25,811 nucleotides of DNA, from the IMG/VR virus record IMGVR_UViG_3300045611_000272, positions 1-25,811 of that record; one strand, given 5' to 3'. Position 1 is the first letter of the stretch. The number at the start of each line of letters is the position of its first letter. Shown in pieces: positions 5,966-25,811 of this stretch. The notes below the pieces were generated by a model, which was not told where the DNA came from, did no database searches, and worked only from the letters and a program-made list of their open reading frames with translations. The position numbers and the translations under genes are program-made. Origin of the DNA: a virus.

Positions 5966-6424
5966 TCAGCATTCTTTATGTCTATTCTCCAATACCCTTC
6001 TTAATCCGGGCGGATGCGCCGTCCAAGCCTCCATTAGGTGGTTCCTGAACCAGAAAAGAAATTCATCCATGGAGAAGTCCGCGTTTATCTCGAAGTTACC
6101 CGGGAGCACTGCCCACATGCGCACGCGCCACTTCGCGTTCTTCTTGCGATGAATTAGCACTGGCAGCAACTTCACGCGATCGGCCTGAACGGTTGCCTGC
6201 TCCCACCACTTTTCCACCTGCGGGTTTTCCTGGAACTTGACCTCCACTGCCAAGCCCGGTATTCCCACAAGGTCGTGTCCGCCTTTCATCGATTGCATCA
6301 AATTACGCTGAACTTCCGGCACAAACGGCAACTCCATTTCCCGGCCGACTTCATCCATTACCTTTTGCAAGAGGTCCCGAACTTCTCTTTCCCCGCGGGC
6401 GCCCTTTGAGCGTGCGTTAAGCAT
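5966..6424 (-). CDS. PD-(D/E)XK nuclease, Holliday junction resolvase-like
   Basis: 152 aa. The motif order fits a small resolvase-type PD-(D/E)XK enzyme: SKGARGEREV near the N-terminus (early Glu), then QRNLMQSMKGGHDLVGIPGL with the catalytic Asp, then LAVEVKFQE with Glu-x-Lys. Such enzymes trim branched DNA before packaging or during recombination. AAAGGAG lies 9 bases before the ATG, inside the end of the overlapping HNH gene (8 bases shared). Remnants of what looks like its original start lie upstream of the HNH gene at 7013-7048. Confidence 0.75.
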   Translation of the reverse strand: MLNARSKGARGEREVRDLLQKVMDEVGREMELPFVPEVQRNLMQSMKGGHDLVGIPGLAVEVKFQENPQVEKWWEQATVQADRVKLLPVLIHRKKNAKWRVRMWAVLPGNFEINADFSMDEFLFWFRNHLMEAWTAHPPGLRRVLENRHKEC

Positions 6425-7016
6425 AGTAACGGTCTCCTTTAGAAAGGTTTTCGGAAGCCCACAATGGTTGTAGGTTGGTTAAAGCGTTAATTTCTTTAAT
6501 AGAGGTTATCCCTTCCCTTGCAAAAGCGGAAATTGGTTTGATGTGATCCACGTGCCACTCTCCATAGTTCTCCCAGCACATGCCCTCTAAAAATTTGGAT
6601 TCGAGGTGCTGGCGCAAATCTTCCGTTGTGTATCCAAGTAAGAGTTGGGTCCTCTCGCTTTTTACTTGGTAAAGCGCCAGAAGACTGTTCCGTACGAGGG
6701 TTCTCGCTATCTTCGGCAATAACCCAGCCCCTCGATAGTACTTTCTTTTATAAAGGTTAGCCTGCTCGCGGTAACGAATAAGGTTTAATTTATCACGCTC
6801 TTTCATCTTAGCACGATAAACTGGATCAGATGCGTAGCGTTCCCGTAACCACTTCTTTTTGTCTTCATAACGAAGGGCATCCCTGAGCTTCTCGCATTCA
6901 AGGCACTGGCCGCCGGTGGCATACCGTTTAGCCACATGGCCGCGCTTGCATGGGCGACCAGTAAAGAAAAGGGTCTCCCCTTTCGCCGCGGCTTCTTTTT
7001 TGGAAATATAGGTCAT
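6417..7016 (-). CDS. HNH endonuclease with N-terminal zinc finger (likely homing type)
   Basis: 199 aa. A zinc finger-like set C23-x3-H27 ... C38-x2-C41 starts the protein, followed by a long basic helix region rich in Lys and Arg. The C-terminal HNH core reads EWHVDHIKPISAFAREG, then ALTNLQPLWASENLSKGDR, with the His-Asp-His and the Asn of the beta-beta-alpha metal fold. These phage HNH proteins nick or cut DNA and spread as free-standing homing genes. Its base composition looks more AT-rich than neighbouring genes. It begins with a 4-base overlap with an 11-codon ORF resembling the resolvase N-terminus, and ends overlapping the resolvase start, as if inserted into that gene. Confidence 0.88.
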   Translation of the reverse strand: MTYISKKEAAAKGETLFFTGRPCKRGHVAKRYATGGQCLECEKLRDALRYEDKKKWLRERYASDPVYRAKMKERDKLNLIRYREQANLYKRKYYRGAGLLPKIARTLVRNSLLALYQVKSERTQLLLGYTTEDLRQHLESKFLEGMCWENYGEWHVDHIKPISAFAREGITSIKEINALTNLQPLWASENLSKGDRYYA

Positions 7017-14309: not shown

Positions 14310-16921
14310 AGCTCCGCCCGTATCAAGAGGAGGCGGTAGCCTCCATCTGGAATTACTTTTCGGTGCATTCCGGAAACCCGTTGCTGGCGCTTCCAACCGG
14401 CTGCCATGCGAAAGGGCAGCGGATTTTAATGTTTGATGGAAGTCTAAGATGCGTAGAAGACATTAAAGTTGGCGACCTTTTAATGGGACCAGACTCAACA
14501 CCGCGCACCGTCTTGACTCTGTGTCGAGGTCGCCAAGAGATGCGCCGCATTGTGCCGATTAAAGGAGAGAGCTGGGTAGTCAACAAAGATCATATCCTAG
14601 CCCTCTATCGTTGTAAAACAAAAAATGGATCGAAGTACCCAAGCCACGCGGAAAAGTTAGTTACTCAAACTGTGGCGGATTTCGAGCAAGCATCAAAGTG
14701 GCATCGTCATTACCACAAGTTATATCGAACAGCTGTAACTTTTCAAGCGGGAGGGGAGCTTCCGCTCCCGCCATATTTTCTTGGTGTGTTTCTTGGAGAC
14801 GGATGCTACACCCAGTCGCAGGTTGGAATCACTTCAGCGGACGAAGAAATCCATGCCTACTGCACTTCCTATATGATCAGCATAGGAGATCGCACTCGGA
14901 GAACTAATAATGGGTCGAAAGCCGATACTACTTACGCTACGACCGGCATAATAAACCGAGCGCGCCGCTCAGAAACTGCCAAAAAATTGGATTTGCTTGG
15001 GCTGCGAAATTGTAATTGTTTTTCAAAGTACATTCCTCAAAGTTATAAAACAGCATCCTACGAGAGCCGCCTAGCCCTTCTAGCTGGGTTGATGGATACG
15101 GACGGCTCGGAACTCCACGGCACCTTTGATTATGCTACCGTTTCTCACCAATTAGCCGAAGATATCCTTTTTGTGGCTAGAAGTGTCGGGTTAGCGGCAT
15201 ATTCCGTTTTCAAAAAGAATAAATATAAAGGATACTATCGAATCTCCATCTCTGGAGACTGCTCAAAAGTTCCTACCTTACTCCCGCGCAAAAAAGCCCA
15301 ACCAAGGCGCCAGAAAAAGAATTGGCTAGTTACATGCTTTACGGTGGAATCACTCCCAGAAGATAATTATTATGGCTTTACCTTGGATAAGGATCACCTC
15401 TACCTGTTAGATGATTTTACAGTAACCCATAACACCGGAAAAAGTGTCATTATCGCGGAGCTACTGCGCAGGTCTTTTTTCGCATGGGAAGATCAGCGCG
15501 TTTTGGTGCTGACCCACGTTAAGGAGCTGCTGGCACAAAACTTCGAGAAGCTCTTGGCTTTGTGGCCTACGGCACCCGCCGGGATATATTCGGCTGGCCT
15601 CAAGCGGCGCGACACCAAGCATCCGATTCTATTCGGCGGCATTGCCAGCCTAAATAACCTCGCCGTCGAGGCGCTGGGTAAAATCGATTTAATTCTGATC
15701 GACGAGTGCCATTTGGTTAGCCATCGCTCGGAGACTATGTATCAAGCGTTGCTGCAAAGGCTCACGGAAATCAACCCCCTATTAAAGGTAATAGGGTTCA
15801 CGGCTACTCCTTATCGACTTGGGTTGGGTCACATGACGGACGGCGGCATTTTCACGGATGTCTGCTATGACCTAACCGGGCGGGATGCCTTCAACCAGCT
15901 GGTCGCCGATAGCTATCTGGCTCCGCTTATTACCAAAAAGACCGTTCAAGAACTTGATCTATCCGGTGTGCATATTCAGGGCGGCGAGTATGTGCAATCC
16001 GAGTTGCAACATGCCGTGGATCGCGCTGCCGTTACCGACGCTGCTGTGCAGGAACTGATTTATTATGGGAAATATCGTGAGCACTGGCTAGTCTTTGCTT
16101 CCGGCATCGAGCATTCGCAGCACGTCGCAGAGTGCTTAAACTACTATGGCATACCGGCAGCGACGGTCCATTCCAAGTGTACTAGCGAAGAGCGTGATGC
16201 ACTGCTGGCCGACTTCCGTTCAGGGCGCATTCGTGCTCTGGTGAATACCAATATCCTGACGACGGGCTTTGACTTTCCGGGCATCGACTTGATTGGCGTA
16301 CTGCGCCCAACTGCTTCGGCAGTCCTATGGGTGCAGATGCTCGGGCGCGGTACCCGCCCAGCGGAAAATAAAGAGAATTGTCTGGTTTTAGATTTTGCCG
16401 GAAATACCCGCCGGCTCGGCCCTATCAACGATCCAGTCATGCCTCGCAAGAAGGGCCAGAAGGGGCCAGGGCAGGCACCGGTGCGCGTCTGCGACAACTG
16501 CGGAACCTACCAGCACGCCTCGCTTCGCTTTTGCGAAGCCTGCGGGGTGGAATTTCCGCGTAACCACAAGCTAGCCATGACGGCGTACGCCGAAGAAGTA
16601 GTCGCACAGAGCGAGCCCGTAGTAACCGATTTCAAAGTGGATCGCGTAACCTATTCAACGCATGCCAAGCCCGGCAAACCGCCATCCATGCAGGTAAGCT
16701 ACTATTGTGGATTGCGCCTTTTCCGCGAGTATGTTTGCCTCGAGCACGACGGCTACGCCGGGAAAAAATCCCGCGAATGGTGGCGAAAGCGCGCCGGTGA
16801 AGACCCACCCGAGACTACTGCGGAAGCCGTGGACCTCGCAGAGGGTCTACCCGTTCCCGCCACCATCAAGGTGTGGGTGAATACCAAGTATCCGGAAGTT
16901 CTTGAACATACCTTTCTTTGA
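14306..16921 (+). CDS. SF2 DEAH/DExH helicase precursor interrupted by an intein
   Basis: 871-aa precursor. After removal of the 344-residue intein (33-376), the mature protein is 527 aa. Extein motifs: MKLRPYQEEAV (Q-motif-like), a P-loop rebuilt as LPTG + TGKS, LIDECH (motif II), GFTATPYR (motif III), TGFDFPGIDLIG, and MLGRGTRP (motif VI). A zinc ribbon (CDNCGTYQHASLRFCEACG) and a C-terminal domain follow. It resembles phage and prophage helicases that act in replication or repair. ATP binding would be impossible before splicing, because the insertion splits Walker A. It sits between the nuclease gene and QueE. Confidence 0.92.
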   Translation: MKLRPYQEEAVASIWNYFSVHSGNPLLALPTGCHAKGQRILMFDGSLRCVEDIKVGDLLMGPDSTPRTVLTLCRGRQEMRRIVPIKGESWVVNKDHILALYRCKTKNGSKYPSHAEKLVTQTVADFEQASKWHRHYHKLYRTAVTFQAGGELPLPPYFLGVFLGDGCYTQSQVGITSADEEIHAYCTSYMISIGDRTRRTNNGSKADTTYATTGIINRARRSETAKKLDLLGLRNCNCFSKYIPQSYKTASYESRLALLAGLMDTDGSELHGTFDYATVSHQLAEDILFVARSVGLAAYSVFKKNKYKGYYRISISGDCSKVPTLLPRKKAQPRRQKKNWLVTCFTVESLPEDNYYGFTLDKDHLYLLDDFTVTHNTGKSVIIAELLRRSFFAWEDQRVLVLTHVKELLAQNFEKLLALWPTAPAGIYSAGLKRRDTKHPILFGGIASLNNLAVEALGKIDLILIDECHLVSHRSETMYQALLQRLTEINPLLKVIGFTATPYRLGLGHMTDGGIFTDVCYDLTGRDAFNQLVADSYLAPLITKKTVQELDLSGVHIQGGEYVQSELQHAVDRAAVTDAAVQELIYYGKYREHWLVFASGIEHSQHVAECLNYYGIPAATVHSKCTSEERDALLADFRSGRIRALVNTNILTTGFDFPGIDLIGVLRPTASAVLWVQMLGRGTRPAENKENCLVLDFAGNTRRLGPINDPVMPRKKGQKGPGQAPVRVCDNCGTYQHASLRFCEACGVEFPRNHKLAMTAYAEEVVAQSEPVVTDFKVDRVTYSTHAKPGKPPSMQVSYYCGLRLFREYVCLEHDGYAGKKSREWWRKRAGEDPPETTAEAVDLAEGLPVPATIKVWVNTKYPEVLEHTFL
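14402..15433 (+). mobile_element. Intein with LAGLIDADG homing endonuclease in the helicase P-loop
   Basis: 344 codons in frame. Block A starts with C33 (CHAKGQRILMFDGSLRCVED), block B is SWVVNKDHILAL, the two endonuclease motifs are FLGVFLGDG (D165) and LLAGLMDTDG (D266), and block F/G is YYGFTLDKDHLYLLDDF through to VTHN, followed by Thr as +1 residue. Both catalytic aspartates and all splice residues (Cys1, His-Asn, Thr+1) are present, so it looks active for splicing and homing. The DNA appears more AT-rich than the exteins, as expected of an acquired element. Confidence 0.95.
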
Positions 16922-16933
16922 GGAGGAAACCTG

Positions 16934-17629
16934 ATGCGAAACAACCAAGCGGCGGAGAAACCACTTCGCCACTCCGGTGAAGTTCTGGAGGTGCATTCCA
17001 TCTTCCACACCTTGCAAGGCGAAGGGCCATATGCCGGGGTGCCTGCCGTGTTTCTACGGCTGGCTGGATGCAACTTGCAATGCCCCGACTGTGATACCGA
17101 TTACACCGCCGGGCGCGAGCCAATGCACCTTGATGCTATTCTTCTGCGCATCGACGGGGTCGCCTTGCCGTTCCCGATGACGCGCCTGGTGGTGATCACC
17201 GGCGGCGAACCTATGCGGCAGCCTCTTGGGCCCCTAATCCGCCAACTACTGCGCCACGGCTGGGAGGTGCAGCTCGAGACCAACGGAACCCTCTTTCAAG
17301 AGGGGATTCCGTACGAGGGGATTACCGTGGTCTGTAGTCCGAAAACAGGTTCTATAAATAAAGCGCTGGCCCCCCACCTGTCTGCGTTAAAATACGTCGT
17401 AAATAAGGCCGCGCTTGGAGCAGACGGCCTGCCGGACACCGCGCTTAACCACGGCACCTCGCTTTTGGCGCGGCCTCCGCAGGATTTCGCAGGGACCGTC
17501 TACTTGCAACCTTTTGACAGCGGAAATGCTGAAGAGAACCGAGTACATCAACTAGCAACGGTAGAAGCGTGCCTCCAAACCGGCGCAACCTATTGCCACC
17601 AACTTCATAAACTACTAGAACTGGAGTGA
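16934..17629 (+). CDS. queE: 7-carboxy-7-deazaguanine synthase QueE
   Basis: 231 aa behind a strong GAGGAGG. This radical SAM enzyme converts 6-carboxy-tetrahydropterin to 7-carboxy-7-deazaguanine. The cluster motif is C46-x3-C50-x2-C53 (GCNLQCPDCDT), preceded by the substrate-binding region TLQGEGPYAGVPAVFLRLAG. ITGGEP (88-93) is the SAM-binding GGEP, and the length is normal for the family. Downstream, QueC begins 2 bases after the stop, so the two are translated together. All recognisable catalytic features are intact. Confidence 0.95.
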   Translation: MRNNQAAEKPLRHSGEVLEVHSIFHTLQGEGPYAGVPAVFLRLAGCNLQCPDCDTDYTAGREPMHLDAILLRIDGVALPFPMTRLVVITGGEPMRQPLGPLIRQLLRHGWEVQLETNGTLFQEGIPYEGITVVCSPKTGSINKALAPHLSALKYVVNKAALGADGLPDTALNHGTSLLARPPQDFAGTVYLQPFDSGNAEENRVHQLATVEACLQTGATYCHQLHKLLELE

Positions 17630-17631
17630 TC

Positions 17632-19080
17632 ATGACCAAAGCACTAGTAATACTTTCGGGCGGCCAAGACTCAACTACGTGCCTCTTCTGGGCAAAGCAC
17701 AATTTTACCGAGGTGCATGCTATTACCTTCGACTATGGGCAGCGGCATCACATCGAGATTGATGCAGCGCGTAAGGTAGCGGAAATGGCGGGCGTCGCCT
17801 CGCACGAGGTGGTGGAGGTGCCGAATTGCTTAACCGGAAAATCCTTCCTTACCGATCTTACCGCCCCAGTGGAGCGGTTCGAAAGTCTGGAACACATGGA
17901 GCACCACAACGCCTTCAAAGAGAATAAGCTGGACAGTAGTTTCGTCCCTATGCGCAATGTTCTTTTCTTGACCATAGCCGCCAACCGCGCGGCCGTGCTG
18001 GGGTGCCTTACGCTGGTCACCGGGGTCACTGCGGCGGACTTTGCCGAATACGGAGGATTTTCGTGGGAATGGCTCGGCGGCTTCGTAGATGCCAAAGGGC
18101 ATTTCAGTGAATCGAACGGCTCTTCGCGTACTTTGCGCTTGGCGATTTCTCAGAACGATCCGGAGCTGCTGGTGCGCCTGGGAAAATGGGTTCAAGGCCA
18201 ACTACCGAAGGCTAATTACTCGGTTAGCGGCGATAGCCTTTATTTTGGCGTTCGCGCTCTGCGTGAAATGGCACCCTTTTTGACACCGCATTTGCATAGT
18301 CCACATCGTCGAAAGCAAGCCGCTGAGAAAGGGGAAGGTCTCTCGCTCGCAGCAGAAGCTCCGCTCACCGATGCTTATGTGACCGGCTTTTGGGAAGGGG
18401 ATGGCAGTTACTATGCGGCATGGACAAAAACACGCGCATCGAAAAAATCTGGGAAAGACGGAAGAACTCGCATGGCCTATTTTTCTTTCTTTCAAAAAGA
18501 TCCGGCCGTCCTGGAAAAAATTAAAGATTACCTGGGTCGCGGGTATTTAGGCCAACGCCATACCCAGAACGAAATTTACTACCTTCAGGTCGGGGATGGT
18601 CCTAGGAAGGCAACGCTGCATCGGCGCATGCTCCCGCACCTGAACGTTTTGGGGTCGTTTGAAAAACTAACCAAGTGGCGGCACGCCGTCGAGCTAACGG
18701 CCGGAGGCTTTAATCCGCCCTACCCCGATTGCACGCCAGACTTTGTTCGCGCTGCGCAAGAAACTATTAACGAAGCATTGCGTTCCCCGGAACAGGAAAA
18801 GATCCAAATAGCTACGCCGGTGATGTTTCTAACTAAGGCGCAGTCTGTACACCTTGCTAAGGCGCTTCCCGGCTGCTGGGAAGCAATGGCCTATTCACAT
18901 ACCAGCTATGATGGAAAGTATCCGCCGACTGATATGAATCATGCCAATGTCCTGCGCGCCCATGGTTTCGAGAAAGCCGGCCTCCCCGATCCGCTGGTAC
19001 TGCGCGCCGTTCGCGAAGGGTTGATGGAGCTGCCGATGACGAGCAATTACCAAAATGTTCAACTGGAACTGGAGTTCTGA
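17632..19080 (+). CDS. queC: preQ0 synthase QueC with a LAGLIDADG insertion
   Basis: 482 aa, about twice the usual length (E. coli ~231). I use the ATG 17632 with GGAG 5 bases upstream, not the GTG 17626. QueC converts 7-carboxy-7-deazaguanine plus ammonia to preQ0 using ATP. The N-terminal part has the PP-loop LSGGQDSTTCL, FDYGQRHHIEI and VPMRNVLFLTIAANRAAVLG. Residues 144-360 (18061-18711) are an inserted LAGLIDADG domain. The QueC sequence resumes at NPPYPDCTPDFVRAAQ and continues with TPVMFLTKAQSVHLAK. The C-terminal region that normally carries four zinc cysteines reads TSYDGKYPPTDMNHAN and has none. If the insert is tolerated the enzyme may still work, since the ATP site is intact. Confidence 0.9.
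   Translation: MTKALVILSGGQDSTTCLFWAKHNFTEVHAITFDYGQRHHIEIDAARKVAEMAGVASHEVVEVPNCLTGKSFLTDLTAPVERFESLEHMEHHNAFKENKLDSSFVPMRNVLFLTIAANRAAVLGCLTLVTGVTAADFAEYGGFSWEWLGGFVDAKGHFSESNGSSRTLRLAISQNDPELLVRLGKWVQGQLPKANYSVSGDSLYFGVRALREMAPFLTPHLHSPHRRKQAAEKGEGLSLAAEAPLTDAYVTGFWEGDGSYYAAWTKTRASKKSGKDGRTRMAYFSFFQKDPAVLEKIKDYLGRGYLGQRHTQNEIYYLQVGDGPRKATLHRRMLPHLNVLGSFEKLTKWRHAVELTAGGFNPPYPDCTPDFVRAAQETINEALRSPEQEKIQIATPVMFLTKAQSVHLAKALPGCWEAMAYSHTSYDGKYPPTDMNHANVLRAHGFEKAGLPDPLVLRAVREGLMELPMTSNYQNVQLELEF
18061..18711 (+). mobile_element. In-frame LAGLIDADG domain inserted in QueC without splicing blocks
   Basis: 217 codons between two copies of Gly-Gly-Phe (18052-18060 and 18703-18711). It has two LAGLIDADG-type helices: WLGGFVDAKGHF and YVTGFWEGDGSY. 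In the first, the usual catalytic Asp is Lys (K155); in the second it is present (D257). The first motif begins only a few residues after the junction and the end has no His-Asn, so there is no room for intein splicing domains. The frame is open throughout, and an intron core has no visible space. Confidence 0.85.
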
Positions 19081-19082
19081 TT

Positions 19083-19538
19083 ATGCCTTATATTTCCACC
19101 AAAACCTATGGTGCTGAGCGTGGCTTTGCGGTGGCTTACCGCCAGTGGCGCGCGGACACCCATTGCAACAAGCTGCACGGCTACGCTTTGAGCTTTATCT
19201 TTGAGTTTGAAGCGGACACGCTCGACTTTCGCAACTGGGTTGCGGACTTCGGCGGCTTCCGCTCGCTTAAGGAGCATCTCGACGAATGGTTCGATCACAC
19301 CTGTCTGGTGGCGGAGGATGATCCGGAGCTTGAGACCTTCAAAATGCTGCATGGAAAGAGGCTCATAAAAATGGTAGTGGTAGAACGTACCGGGTGCGAG
19401 GGGCTTTCCAAATGGCTCTATGACTACCTGGAGGAAATCTGGCTTCCGGAAAACGGTTACAATGATGGTCGCGTGCGCGTGCGCAAAGTCGAAGTTCGGG
19501 AAACCCCTGCAAATTCTGCAATGTATGTGAGAGGTTAA
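19083..19538 (+). CDS. queD: 6-carboxy-tetrahydropterin synthase QueD (divergent zinc site)
   Basis: 151 aa, with GGAG before the ATG and a 2-base gap from QueC. It would convert dihydroneopterin triphosphate to 6-carboxy-tetrahydropterin. Catalytic-type residues are present: C28 in CNKLHGYAL, D71-H72 in WFDHTCLV and E140 in EVRETPANSAMY. Of the three zinc His ligands of the family (F-x2-AH and LHGH), only H32 is kept; the others align with Y19 (GFAVAY) and Y34 (LHGY). H27 next to the catalytic Cys might compensate. I recall phage and bacterial relatives with the same RQWRA...LHGYAL signature, so this is probably a variant subfamily rather than decay. Confidence 0.88.
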   Translation: MPYISTKTYGAERGFAVAYRQWRADTHCNKLHGYALSFIFEFEADTLDFRNWVADFGGFRSLKEHLDEWFDHTCLVAEDDPELETFKMLHGKRLIKMVVVERTGCEGLSKWLYDYLEEIWLPENGYNDGRVRVRKVEVRETPANSAMYVRG

Positions 19539-19539
19539 T

Positions 19540-20595
19540 ATGACCAAGAAGATCAAACTTACCAATGCCAACGTAGACCGCATGGCGGATCACCTTGCCA
19601 ACCTTATTCGGGCGGAGTTCCCTCATGAGGTAGTTCCGATCTATGGCATCCCGCGCGGCGGGGTCCCGGTGGCTTACCTTCTGGCGCGTTACCAGAATAT
19701 CCGCGTAGTGGACGACCCGGCGGATGCCGCACTGTTTGTGGATGATATCATCGACTCAGGGACCACTCTGGAGCACTGGTGCGATACTTACCCGGGCACG
19801 CCGTTCTTCGCGCTCATTGACAAGCGCAATCCCCACTCGCCGTGCAACAGCGAAGAGGCGCTGGATTTTATCCGCTCTGGCGGCTGGATTGAATTCCCGT
19901 GGGAAGCCGGCAATGAGCGGGCGGAAGATGACTCGATCGTCGGAACCATTTTGAATCGCATTAAGCATGCAGGCGTTGGCTACTACGCCAATGACAACAT
20001 CTCCGCTTTTATCCATTCTGGCGAGCTGGAAGAGCTGCAGAATGAAGTGCAGCACCGCGCCGAGCATTTCCTGCGCGGACTGATCATCGATGTGGACAAT
20101 GACCACAATACGCGCGGGACCGCGAAACGCATTGCGAAGATGTACTTGCATGAAGTTTTCAAAGGTCGCTACAAGGAAGCTCCGCATATTACCGATTTCC
20201 CGAATGCCAAGAAGCTGGACGAGATGTATATGACCGGCCCGATCACCATTCGCTCCGCTTGCTCGCATCATTTCGTGCCGATCATTGGGCGTTGCTGGAT
20301 CGGTTTGATCCCTGGCGACCGCGTAATTGGCTTATCCAAGTTTAACCGCATTGTGGACTGGATCGCCTCGCGTCCGCAGATTCAGGAAGAACTGGTGGTG
20401 CAGATTGCGGACTTCATCGAGGAGCAAATTGCGCCGGTTGGTCTCGCGGTAGTGGTGGAGGCTACCCATATGTGCATGACTTGGCGCGGGGTTAAGGAGC
20501 CGCTCGAATCCAAGATGACTACGAATGTCATGCGCGGGGCGTTTCGCGACTCCCCTGAAGCGCGTTCTGAGTTCATGGCTTTGGTGGCAAAGTGA
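19540..20595 (+). CDS. folE: Phosphoribosyltransferase-GTP cyclohydrolase I fusion
   Basis: 351 aa. Residues ~1-150 are a type I phosphoribosyltransferase: VVPIYGIPRGGVPVAYLLA and the PRPP loop LFVDDIIDSGTT (65-76). Residues ~155-351 are GTP cyclohydrolase I: RGTAKRIAKMYLHEVFKGRY, SACSHHFVP (C241, H244), and THMCMTWRGV (C312). These three are the zinc ligands, with the same Cys-Cys spacing of 71 as in E. coli FolE. FolE opens GTP to dihydroneopterin triphosphate, the first step to preQ0. The PRPP domain could salvage guanine or another base to supply GTP, which is inference. It starts 1 base after queD and its stop overlaps the dpdA-like GTG. Confidence 0.93.
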   Translation: MTKKIKLTNANVDRMADHLANLIRAEFPHEVVPIYGIPRGGVPVAYLLARYQNIRVVDDPADAALFVDDIIDSGTTLEHWCDTYPGTPFFALIDKRNPHSPCNSEEALDFIRSGGWIEFPWEAGNERAEDDSIVGTILNRIKHAGVGYYANDNISAFIHSGELEELQNEVQHRAEHFLRGLIIDVDNDHNTRGTAKRIAKMYLHEVFKGRYKEAPHITDFPNAKKLDEMYMTGPITIRSACSHHFVPIIGRCWIGLIPGDRVIGLSKFNRIVDWIASRPQIQEELVVQIADFIEEQIAPVGLAVVVEATHMCMTWRGVKEPLESKMTTNVMRGAFRDSPEARSEFMALVAK

Positions 20596-21509
20596 AACTG
20601 TACCTTGCAGGCACCTACACTAGCGGGTGCTACGTGGGTGGGACCCTTTACCAGCGGATGACTCCGCAAGAGCGCCTTCATTGCGAAAGCGCGGAGCATC
20701 TGCTGGATTCATACCACTATATCCACAAGGAGGCCAAAGTCCGCCAAATTCGCGAAAGCCAGCGAAAGGACAAGGTCTTTCTGGACTCCGGGGCTTTCTC
20801 GGCATTCACCAAGGGCGCGACTATTGACCTGCCGGGGTACTGCGAGTACATCAAGCGCAACGAGGATATTATCGAGAAGAGTGACGGTGTGCTCATGGCT
20901 TCCGTTTTGGATGGCATTGGTGATCCGCTGAAGACCTGGCAAAACCAAAAGGCTATGGAAAGCCTTGGAGTGCGCCCGCTGCCCTGCTTCCACTACGGGG
21001 AGGATGAACGTTACCTGGAGGAGTATGTTAAGAATTATGAATACATAACCCTTGGCGGTATGGTACCGATCTCCACGCCACAATTGTTCCTGTGGCTGGA
21101 TCGTATTTGGGATAGGTATTTGACGGATGGTTCGGGTCGCCCGCGCCTTAAGGTTCACGGATTTGGCCTGACCGCCATACCGCTGATGCAGCGCTATCCA
21201 TGGTATTCGGTAGACTCGTCCTCTTGGGTGCAGATTGCATCGGTGGGCAGCGTAATCCTTCCGCGCGGCAAGGTGGTGTGTCTTTCGTCAAAGAGCCCTT
21301 CGCGGAAGGTGGCTGGGCAGCACCTAGATAATCTTCCCGAGGAGCTGTCGCAGCCCGTGGTCGAAGAGCTGGAATCCTACGGCCTTGATGTTGCCAAGGC
21401 CCGCGATCATTACGTTCCGCGCTGGGTATTCAACATCTGGAGCTACTCGCAGATTGGAAAAGCTATTCCGGATCATAGCTTCAAGGCTGACCAACCTTTA
21501 CTTTTTTAA
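20592..21509 (+). CDS. dpdA: DpdA-like DNA 7-deazaguanine transglycosylase
   Basis: 305 aa from GTG 20592, overlapping the previous TGA. It resembles tRNA-guanine transglycosylases in fold signals: KVFLDSGAFSAFTKG (acidic residue in the DSG motif), DGVLMASVLDGIGDP, YITLGGMVPI, VHGFGLTAI and WYSVDSSSWVQ (candidate nucleophile Asp). Phage DpdA proteins exchange guanine in DNA for preQ0 or a derivative. It closes a QueE-QueC-QueD-FolE cassette, which strongly supports DNA rather than tRNA as its target. The protein is shorter than bacterial DpdA, as I recall for phage versions. Confidence 0.85.
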   Translation: MKLYLAGTYTSGCYVGGTLYQRMTPQERLHCESAEHLLDSYHYIHKEAKVRQIRESQRKDKVFLDSGAFSAFTKGATIDLPGYCEYIKRNEDIIEKSDGVLMASVLDGIGDPLKTWQNQKAMESLGVRPLPCFHYGEDERYLEEYVKNYEYITLGGMVPISTPQLFLWLDRIWDRYLTDGSGRPRLKVHGFGLTAIPLMQRYPWYSVDSSSWVQIASVGSVILPRGKVVCLSSKSPSRKVAGQHLDNLPEELSQPVVEELESYGLDVAKARDHYVPRWVFNIWSYSQIGKAIPDHSFKADQPLLF

Positions 21510-25299: not shown

Positions 25300-25641
25300 A
25301 TGAACATCGAAGAGCTTACCTTGAAACAGATTCGCGAAATCCAATCGCTGTGCGCGCTCTCGCAACATGCACCTAGCGTGCATCCATTGATCGGCAGGAA
25401 TGTCGTTGTCCGCACGGTGACGATGATCTATACGGGGCGTCTTGTCGATGCTGACGCCGACACCCTGACACTGATCGATTGCTCATGGATTCCCGAAACG
25501 GAGCGCTACATGCAGTTCGTCGAGAACGGGGCTGCACGAGAGTGCGAGCCGTATCCTGATGGCATGCACGTTTACATCAATCGTGGCGCGTTGCTGGATA
25601 TGTGTGAGCTTAGGAATGCGTTGCCGAGGTCACAAAAATGA
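25300..25641 (+). CDS. Conserved 113-aa protein preceding a repeat protein
   Basis: AGGAG lies 7 bases before the ATG. IGRNVVVRTVTMIYTGRLVD, then DTLTLIDCSWIPETERYMQF, and PYPDGMHVYINRGALLD look like a small beta-barrel. I recall relatives in phages and plasmids, often encoded beside low-complexity Gly/Ser-rich proteins, as here. No enzymatic motif. The stop overlaps the repeat ORF by 4 bases (ATGA). Confidence 0.65.
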   Translation: MNIEELTLKQIREIQSLCALSQHAPSVHPLIGRNVVVRTVTMIYTGRLVDADADTLTLIDCSWIPETERYMQFVENGAARECEPYPDGMHVYINRGALLDMCELRNALPRSQK

Positions 25642-25811
25642 ACGCCGCCATATTGCGCGCACTTTGGTCGCGAGCGTGGTCGCGGTCGGGGTCGTGGTCG
25701 GGGTCGGGGTCGGGCTCGGGCTCGGGATCGGGGTCATGGTCGCGGTCGTGGTCGGGGTCGCGGTCGCGGTCGGGGTTGCGGGCGTGGTCGGGGTCGTGGT
25801 CGGGGTCGGAG
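25638..25811 (+). CDS. Ser-Gly/Trp/Arg dipeptide-repeat protein (cut by window edge)
   Basis: From ATG 25638 (overlapping the previous stop) the frame starts MNAAILRALWSRAWSRSGSW and then becomes an almost perfect alternation of Ser with Gly, Trp or Arg until the window ends at codon 58, with no stop. Such proteins are low-complexity and probably disordered or fibrous. The repeated S-W and S-R pairs would give a basic, aromatic surface. Function unknown. A repeat-expanded or decayed gene is also possible. Confidence 0.55.
   Translation, partial: MNAAILRALWSRAWSRSGSWSGSGSGSGSGSGSWSRSWSGSRSRSGLRAWSGSWSGSE
25668..25811 (+). repeat. Degenerate TCG-NGG hexamer repeat
   Basis: About 24 imperfect copies of a hexamer TCGNGG, with N mostly G, T or C, in frame as Ser-Gly/Trp/Arg. 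The strand is strongly G-rich (runs such as GGGTCGGGGTCGGG), so it may form unusual DNA or RNA structures and change copy number by slippage. It continues past the window. Confidence 0.85.

Follow-up and report, generated by a model that had tools for sequence, protein, structure and literature searches.

An in-frame LAGLIDADG domain within QueC of a phage preQ0/DNA-modification operon

In this study, we analyzed a 25.8-kb phage contig (IMG/VR record IMGVR_UViG_3300045611_000272, positions 1–25,811; this whole stretch of 25,811 nucleotides is referred to as the window), in which profile searches identified a terminase, a helicase, and a family A DNA polymerase together with genes for preQ0 synthesis and DNA modification. 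The latter genes are all on the + strand, and their tight operon spacing is kept. queE (16934–17629; NCBIfam QueE models, E-values down to 5.5e-23) is located upstream of queC (17632–19080), which is followed by queD (19083–19538; PTPS at 1.5e-18 and a match to the QueD model), a gene encoding a phosphoribosyltransferase-FolE fusion (19540–20595; GTP cyclohydrolase I at 1e-48 plus Pribosyltran), and a gene encoding a DpdA-like DNA transglycosylase (20592–21509; phrog_887 at 8.7e-77 and a DpdA match). The minimal set of QueE, QueC, QueD, FolE (here fused to the phosphoribosyltransferase), and DpdA is complete in the window and, on the basis of PMC6884629, predicts dPreQ0 in the DNA of this phage. 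In that work, Gat-QueC of phage 9g provided preQ0 to DpdA but failed to restore queuosine in an E. coli queC deletion assay (PMC6884629). The fusion of FolE to an N-terminal phosphoribosyltransferase-like domain is common to many related phages; in one related phage contig (L042), the two are encoded by adjacent separate ORFs. Elsewhere in the window, a 199-aa ORF on the − strand (6417–7016) contains an HNH-like stretch (WHVDHIKPISAF...LQPLWASENLSKGDR) with no Pfam match at 0.001 and is a probable free-standing HNH endonuclease. The window ends in a low-complexity stretch (25641–25811, translated as VGVGVGLGLG...), which is perhaps the reason why the contig ends there.

The queC ORF encodes 482 amino acids without interruption. 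Pfam matched QueC (6e-48) in two stretches of this ORF with a LAGLIDADG domain between them, in agreement with an earlier reading of the DNA (hereafter the sequence-only reading), which had placed such a domain, with two motifs, in frame inside QueC. The N-terminal part of QueC (17632–18051) carries the PP-loop SGGQDS, VPMRN, and TGVxxxD...Y, as judged from Pfam QueC, TIGR00364, and alignment to 69 distinct phage QueC proteins, and the C-terminal part with the stop codon (18724–19080) extends from PDC to HTSYDGKYPPTDMNH and is likewise aligned with phage QueC. The insert between them is a double-motif LAGLIDADG domain of 672 nt or 224 codons (18052–18723); the boundaries 18049–18720 are equally possible because TAC is present at both junctions. 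At this place, uninterrupted phage QueC proteins have the 14-residue stretch TGVCQxDNANY[PDS]DC, in which Y is followed directly by [PDS]DC; the window protein reads TGVTAADFAEY, the insert, and PDC. The QueC signature D-x-x-x-Y|P-D-C is interrupted at its Tyr. In all 48 relatives, which were picked through DpdA so that the sample is not biased towards insert-free QueC, no residue separates the two halves (gap of 0).

This register moved the boundaries. The sequence-only reading had described an insert of exactly 217 codons (18061–18711) bounded by two Gly-Gly-Phe copies, and the homologs place both copies (GGAGGATTT and GGAGGCTTT) within the insert ends, as parts of the short linkers GGFS... 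and ...GGFNPPY; the shorter span corresponds to the insert minus its linkers. A target duplication marked by the GGF direct repeat was rejected on the same ground. A contig that stops inside queC near the insertion site (L061) proved to be merely a contig end. The frame of the insert is open beyond chance expectation, as only 1 of 5000 dinucleotide shuffles stays open in that frame, and the remaining five frames contain 4–14 stops each. Since no start codon occurs between the junction and motif 1, the domain can be produced only in frame with queC. The codon usage of the insert falls between that of the phage genes and random synonyms, near that of the helicase intein described below.

LAGLIDADG_1 was matched at 2e-8 by the insert alone, and this profile match together with the two motifs identifies the LAGLIDADG fold. 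Motif 1 (LGGFVDAKG, 18073–18099) was aligned to the ADG of an endonuclease from Staphylococcus phage RQ1 and has Lys at the catalytic acid position (18094–18096), a substitution that the sequence-only reading had recognized. Motif 2 (VTGFWEGDG, 18379–18405), also on the + strand, keeps the catalytic Asp; its aligned counterpart in I-MsoI is GFLDGDG. In its second half, the insert shows sequence matches to I-MsoI, rps3/homing-endonuclease fusions, and others. A strong-looking PDB match, 7rdr, is a repeat protein matched by a 22-residue stretch only and was discarded. AlphaFold models of the chimera and of the insert alone both predict the LAGLIDADG half-fold (helix-2 strands-helix-2 strands-helix) in the first half of the insert, and the second half was modeled without confidence. 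The top five Foldseek matches of the insert-alone model were LAGLIDADG proteins (nucleases and maturases), which are supportive only because this model is of low confidence (mean pLDDT 45). VIA structure rows for the whole chimera contained no LAGLIDADG protein and are uninformative, as QueC fills the list. In two-motif LAGLIDADG enzymes, each motif contributes one metal-binding acid. Because the insert has Lys in motif 1 and Asp in motif 2, and not the catalytic acid in both motifs that marks an active homing endonuclease, its double-strand cutting is probably impaired, and it may still nick DNA or simply bind it.

In IMG/VR, relatives were sought with the insert protein, with an alignment that included the RQ1 endonuclease, and with GFxDAKGHF as a degenerate motif. 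No second copy of the insert was found in IMG/VR, GTDB genome contigs, phages, or plasmids, or in the 48 DpdA relatives; the sole relative found was the distant, free-standing RQ1 endonuclease (E-value of 8e-3), and a search through QueE found no nearer relatives. Empty queC sites are common among the relatives, and the insert is known in one copy. A second copy that would demonstrate mobility of the insert was thus not found; its occurrence in one copy and the Lys of motif 1 point to a homing stage that is late or impaired. The same Lys, in a frame that is still intact, could alternatively mark a domain that no longer cuts and has been put to use by the phage, for instance to tether QueC or to repress its own operon. 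Domesticated LAGLIDADG regulators such as WhiA exist, and WhiA is among the weak Foldseek matches of the insert model. However, motif 2 keeps its catalytic Asp, none of the 48 DpdA relatives carries the chimera conserved by descent, and retention in one copy is indistinguishable from recent decay. We therefore consider such domestication unlikely.

The QueC part of the chimera retains the features of the enzyme. With the insert in place, the protein passes the TIGR00364 QueC equivalog cut-off (151.9 vs. 150.3 bits), and it has the PP-loop SGGxDS, VPxRN, D...YxDC, and the fold. All 23 residues that are invariant over 11 diverse QueC proteins are kept. Its identity to 47 relatives is as predicted from the QueE and DpdA identities (z from −1.3 to +0.8), and relaxed evolution of QueC is unsupported by this ordinary level of identity. 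In the AlphaFold chimera, a model that the sequence-only reading had proposed as a check, the QueC core on both sides of the insert is mostly above pLDDT 90 and aligns to Bacillus subtilis QueC (3bl5) over 191 of 199 residues (Z score of 20.8, rmsd of 2.9); the check was informative for this core but not for the second half of the endonuclease. The highly conserved QueC columns differ at 15 of 106 positions, some of them grouped at 72–103 and beside the insertion, where TGVC is changed to TGVT and NANY to FAEY. These differences could reflect adaptation or an activity that is partly lost. Not all QueC proteins have the Cys of TGVC. Phages Dp-1 and StAshley have QueC proteins with two natural extra residues in the same loop, suggesting that the loop is permissive. 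Judging from the constraint on its sequence, QueC with the insert is probably functional.

The nearest relative as judged by DpdA (73% identity) and QueD (70%) is IMGVR_UViG_3300033067_002266, and its uninterrupted QueC is only 62% identical, below those neighbors. This lower value (z of −1.0) is a weak hint of a queC exchange or of faster change in one lineage.

The location of the insert in a signature motif and the conserved columns lost around it raise the question of whether QueC is dead, its active-site loop disrupted and its gene drifting while the host supplies preQ0, which most bacteria make themselves. Against this, the ORF has no stop or frameshift, the deep invariants are complete, the divergence is ordinary, and the operon spacing is intact, so that a dead QueC appears quite improbable.

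The insert has no recognizable splicing element. A Pfam scan detected no Hint domain or intein blocks in it, whereas the same scan detected Hint in the phage's own helicase. This internal control is an intein of 344 aa (14402–15433, + strand; Cys1 ... His-Asn|Thr+1, Walker A motif; Hom_end_hint at 3.9e-19). The helicase carrying it is RadD-like, and the intein has Hint and LAGLIDADG domains and a GC content of 0.46, compared with 0.56 for the window. The insert in queC starts with Gly-Gly-Phe (or Tyr) and ends with Pro-Pro-Tyr before Pro, with neither a Cys/Ser start nor a His-Asn end, and the view that it is not an intein is upheld. The absence of space for a group I intron core was also confirmed: no Rfam intron match was obtained at E-values up to 10, and the T4 nrdD intron was found at 1.3e-27 with the same settings. 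No endonuclease hidden in another frame, as in the ShiLan type, was apparent, with open stretches in the alternative frames reaching at most 114 codons. The search with the insert and intact QueC homologs, suggested by the sequence-only reading, returned uninterrupted homologs that shifted the insert boundaries, and no recognizable intron or intein lies at them. The insert is open, occupies a conserved site in a host gene that is otherwise intact, and has no intein or intron, as expected when a phage modification gene carries a LAGLIDADG domain in frame and unspliced.

Spliced elements are usually seated in conserved enzyme loops, and this position could suggest that the domain is removed by an RNA or protein mechanism of an unfamiliar kind; insertions of the ShiLan type are likewise unexplained (PMC11855218). 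The negative intron and intein searches, with the control intron recovered, argue against such processing, as do linkers that read as ordinary protein and a site that tolerates natural insertions, and we regard it as very unlikely. The sequence-only reading had offered a permanent chimera and unseen processing as its two options; the former is the better one, and the latter gained no support. An assembly artefact joining two phage sequences, conceivable for an insert seen in one viral contig with no second copy, is scarcely credible given the residue-precise junctions in codon phase, homologous QueC on both sides, the intact frame, and an insert GC content (0.53) matching that of the flanking queC parts (0.55 and 0.53).

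We favor as the likely explanation a homing-endonuclease gene that lies in frame and unspliced in a permissive loop of QueC, forms a permanent chimera with it, and encodes a domain whose cutting is impaired or limited to nicks. The in-frame insert is real, it is most likely unspliced, and its host QueC is probably working. A LAGLIDADG homing-endonuclease gene would have inserted into the conserved D-x-x-x-Y|P-D-C loop of queC, presumably through gene conversion of an empty queC, driven by the endonuclease. The host gene would have supplied expression, the permissive loop would have stood in for splicing, and the final product would be the 482-aa protein. The endonuclease would fold as an independent domain on two short Gly/Pro linkers, projecting from a loop that tolerates small insertions, while the two QueC halves would adopt their fold around it and continue to supply preQ0 for DNA modification. 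Because motif 1 lost its catalytic acid, the present copy probably only nicks or does not cut at all; it would have left its active homing phase or have been retained as a module that binds DNA.

The arrangement is less singular than the sequence-only reading implied, because actinophage DNA methylases with a lone in-frame LAGLIDADG domain, without intein or intron, have been published (PMC9957025, PMC11855218). Like queC, the methylase gene is a phage DNA-modification gene with an open in-frame insertion, which in the methylase closely follows a conserved catalytic motif (DPPY...KTWD). On re-checking, Taj gp79 is one open frame with LAGLIDGEG from about residue 63, shortly behind DPPY; it has Pfam matches to methylase and LAGLIDADG_1 (6.9e-16) and no Rfam intron match. 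The Taj-type insert differs from that in QueC in its methylase host, its length of about 139 aa, its single motif, and its kept catalytic Glu (LAGLIDGEG), and the two have no sequence kinship beyond a 35-residue pairwise match (E-value of 0.01). The methylase LAGLIDADG domain is inherited vertically in cluster F (PMC9957025). A related insertion is present within annotated DNA methylases of the Rhodobacter phages RcAqua, RcAquaphina, and RcMrWorf. That of RcAqua (L089:1749–3482) is in frame at the same site as in mycobacteriophage Taj and extends the published case outside the actinophages.

Other systems share some of these features. The ShiLan domain is open in the host frame, lies between codons in conserved residues, and has no splicing domain (PMC11855218), but its endonuclease is an out-of-frame HNH enzyme, whereas that of QueC is an in-frame LAGLIDADG enzyme. 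In the rps3-LAGLIDADG fusions known from fungal mitochondria (PDB 6bcg and relatives), LAGLIDADG is likewise joined in frame to a host protein (PMC7902536), and sequence similarity to the QueC insert is detectable in motif 2; unlike that insert, these fusions are fungal and mitochondrial and do not lie within a loop of a phage-encoded enzyme. LAGLIDADG phage inteins, among them the one in the helicase described above, similarly place an endonuclease domain in frame at a conserved site but carry Hint splicing blocks, which the QueC insert lacks. Aeromonas phage Aeh1 nrdA, as cited in PMC5374615, is an unspliced homing-endonuclease insertion with enzyme function kept; in that citing account it is split into two proteins, in contrast to the one continuous frame of QueC. 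The yeast WHO elements, which home without protein splicing, are a more remote relative (PMC7282813).

Among the papers searched, none connected LAGLIDADG with 7-cyano-7-deazaguanine synthase. The category itself is already known from the lone in-frame LAGLIDADG domains of phage DNA methylases, which are little studied; new here are QueC as the host, an unrelated two-motif endonuclease, and a substituted catalytic acid. As the QueC insert and the methylase inserts are unlike in size and sequence, in the number of motifs, and in the catalytic residue, the former is apparently a second, independent case. In the textbook view, homing endonucleases inside conserved genes need an intron or intein. 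QueC is the second, apparently independent, phage gene family that seems to break this rule, and both families are DNA-modification enzymes protecting phage DNA. We tentatively raise the possibility of a recurring class of selfish genes without splicing, in which LAGLIDADG genes would invade phage DNA-modification enzymes (methylases and QueC) by homing into their permissive loops and persist there as permanent bifunctional chimeras. If this is true, a single polypeptide would make the protective base and attack or nick rival alleles. The QueC chimera offers a simple testable system, in which preQ0 synthesis with a 224-residue domain in place, and binding, nicking, or cutting at the empty queC site, can be examined.
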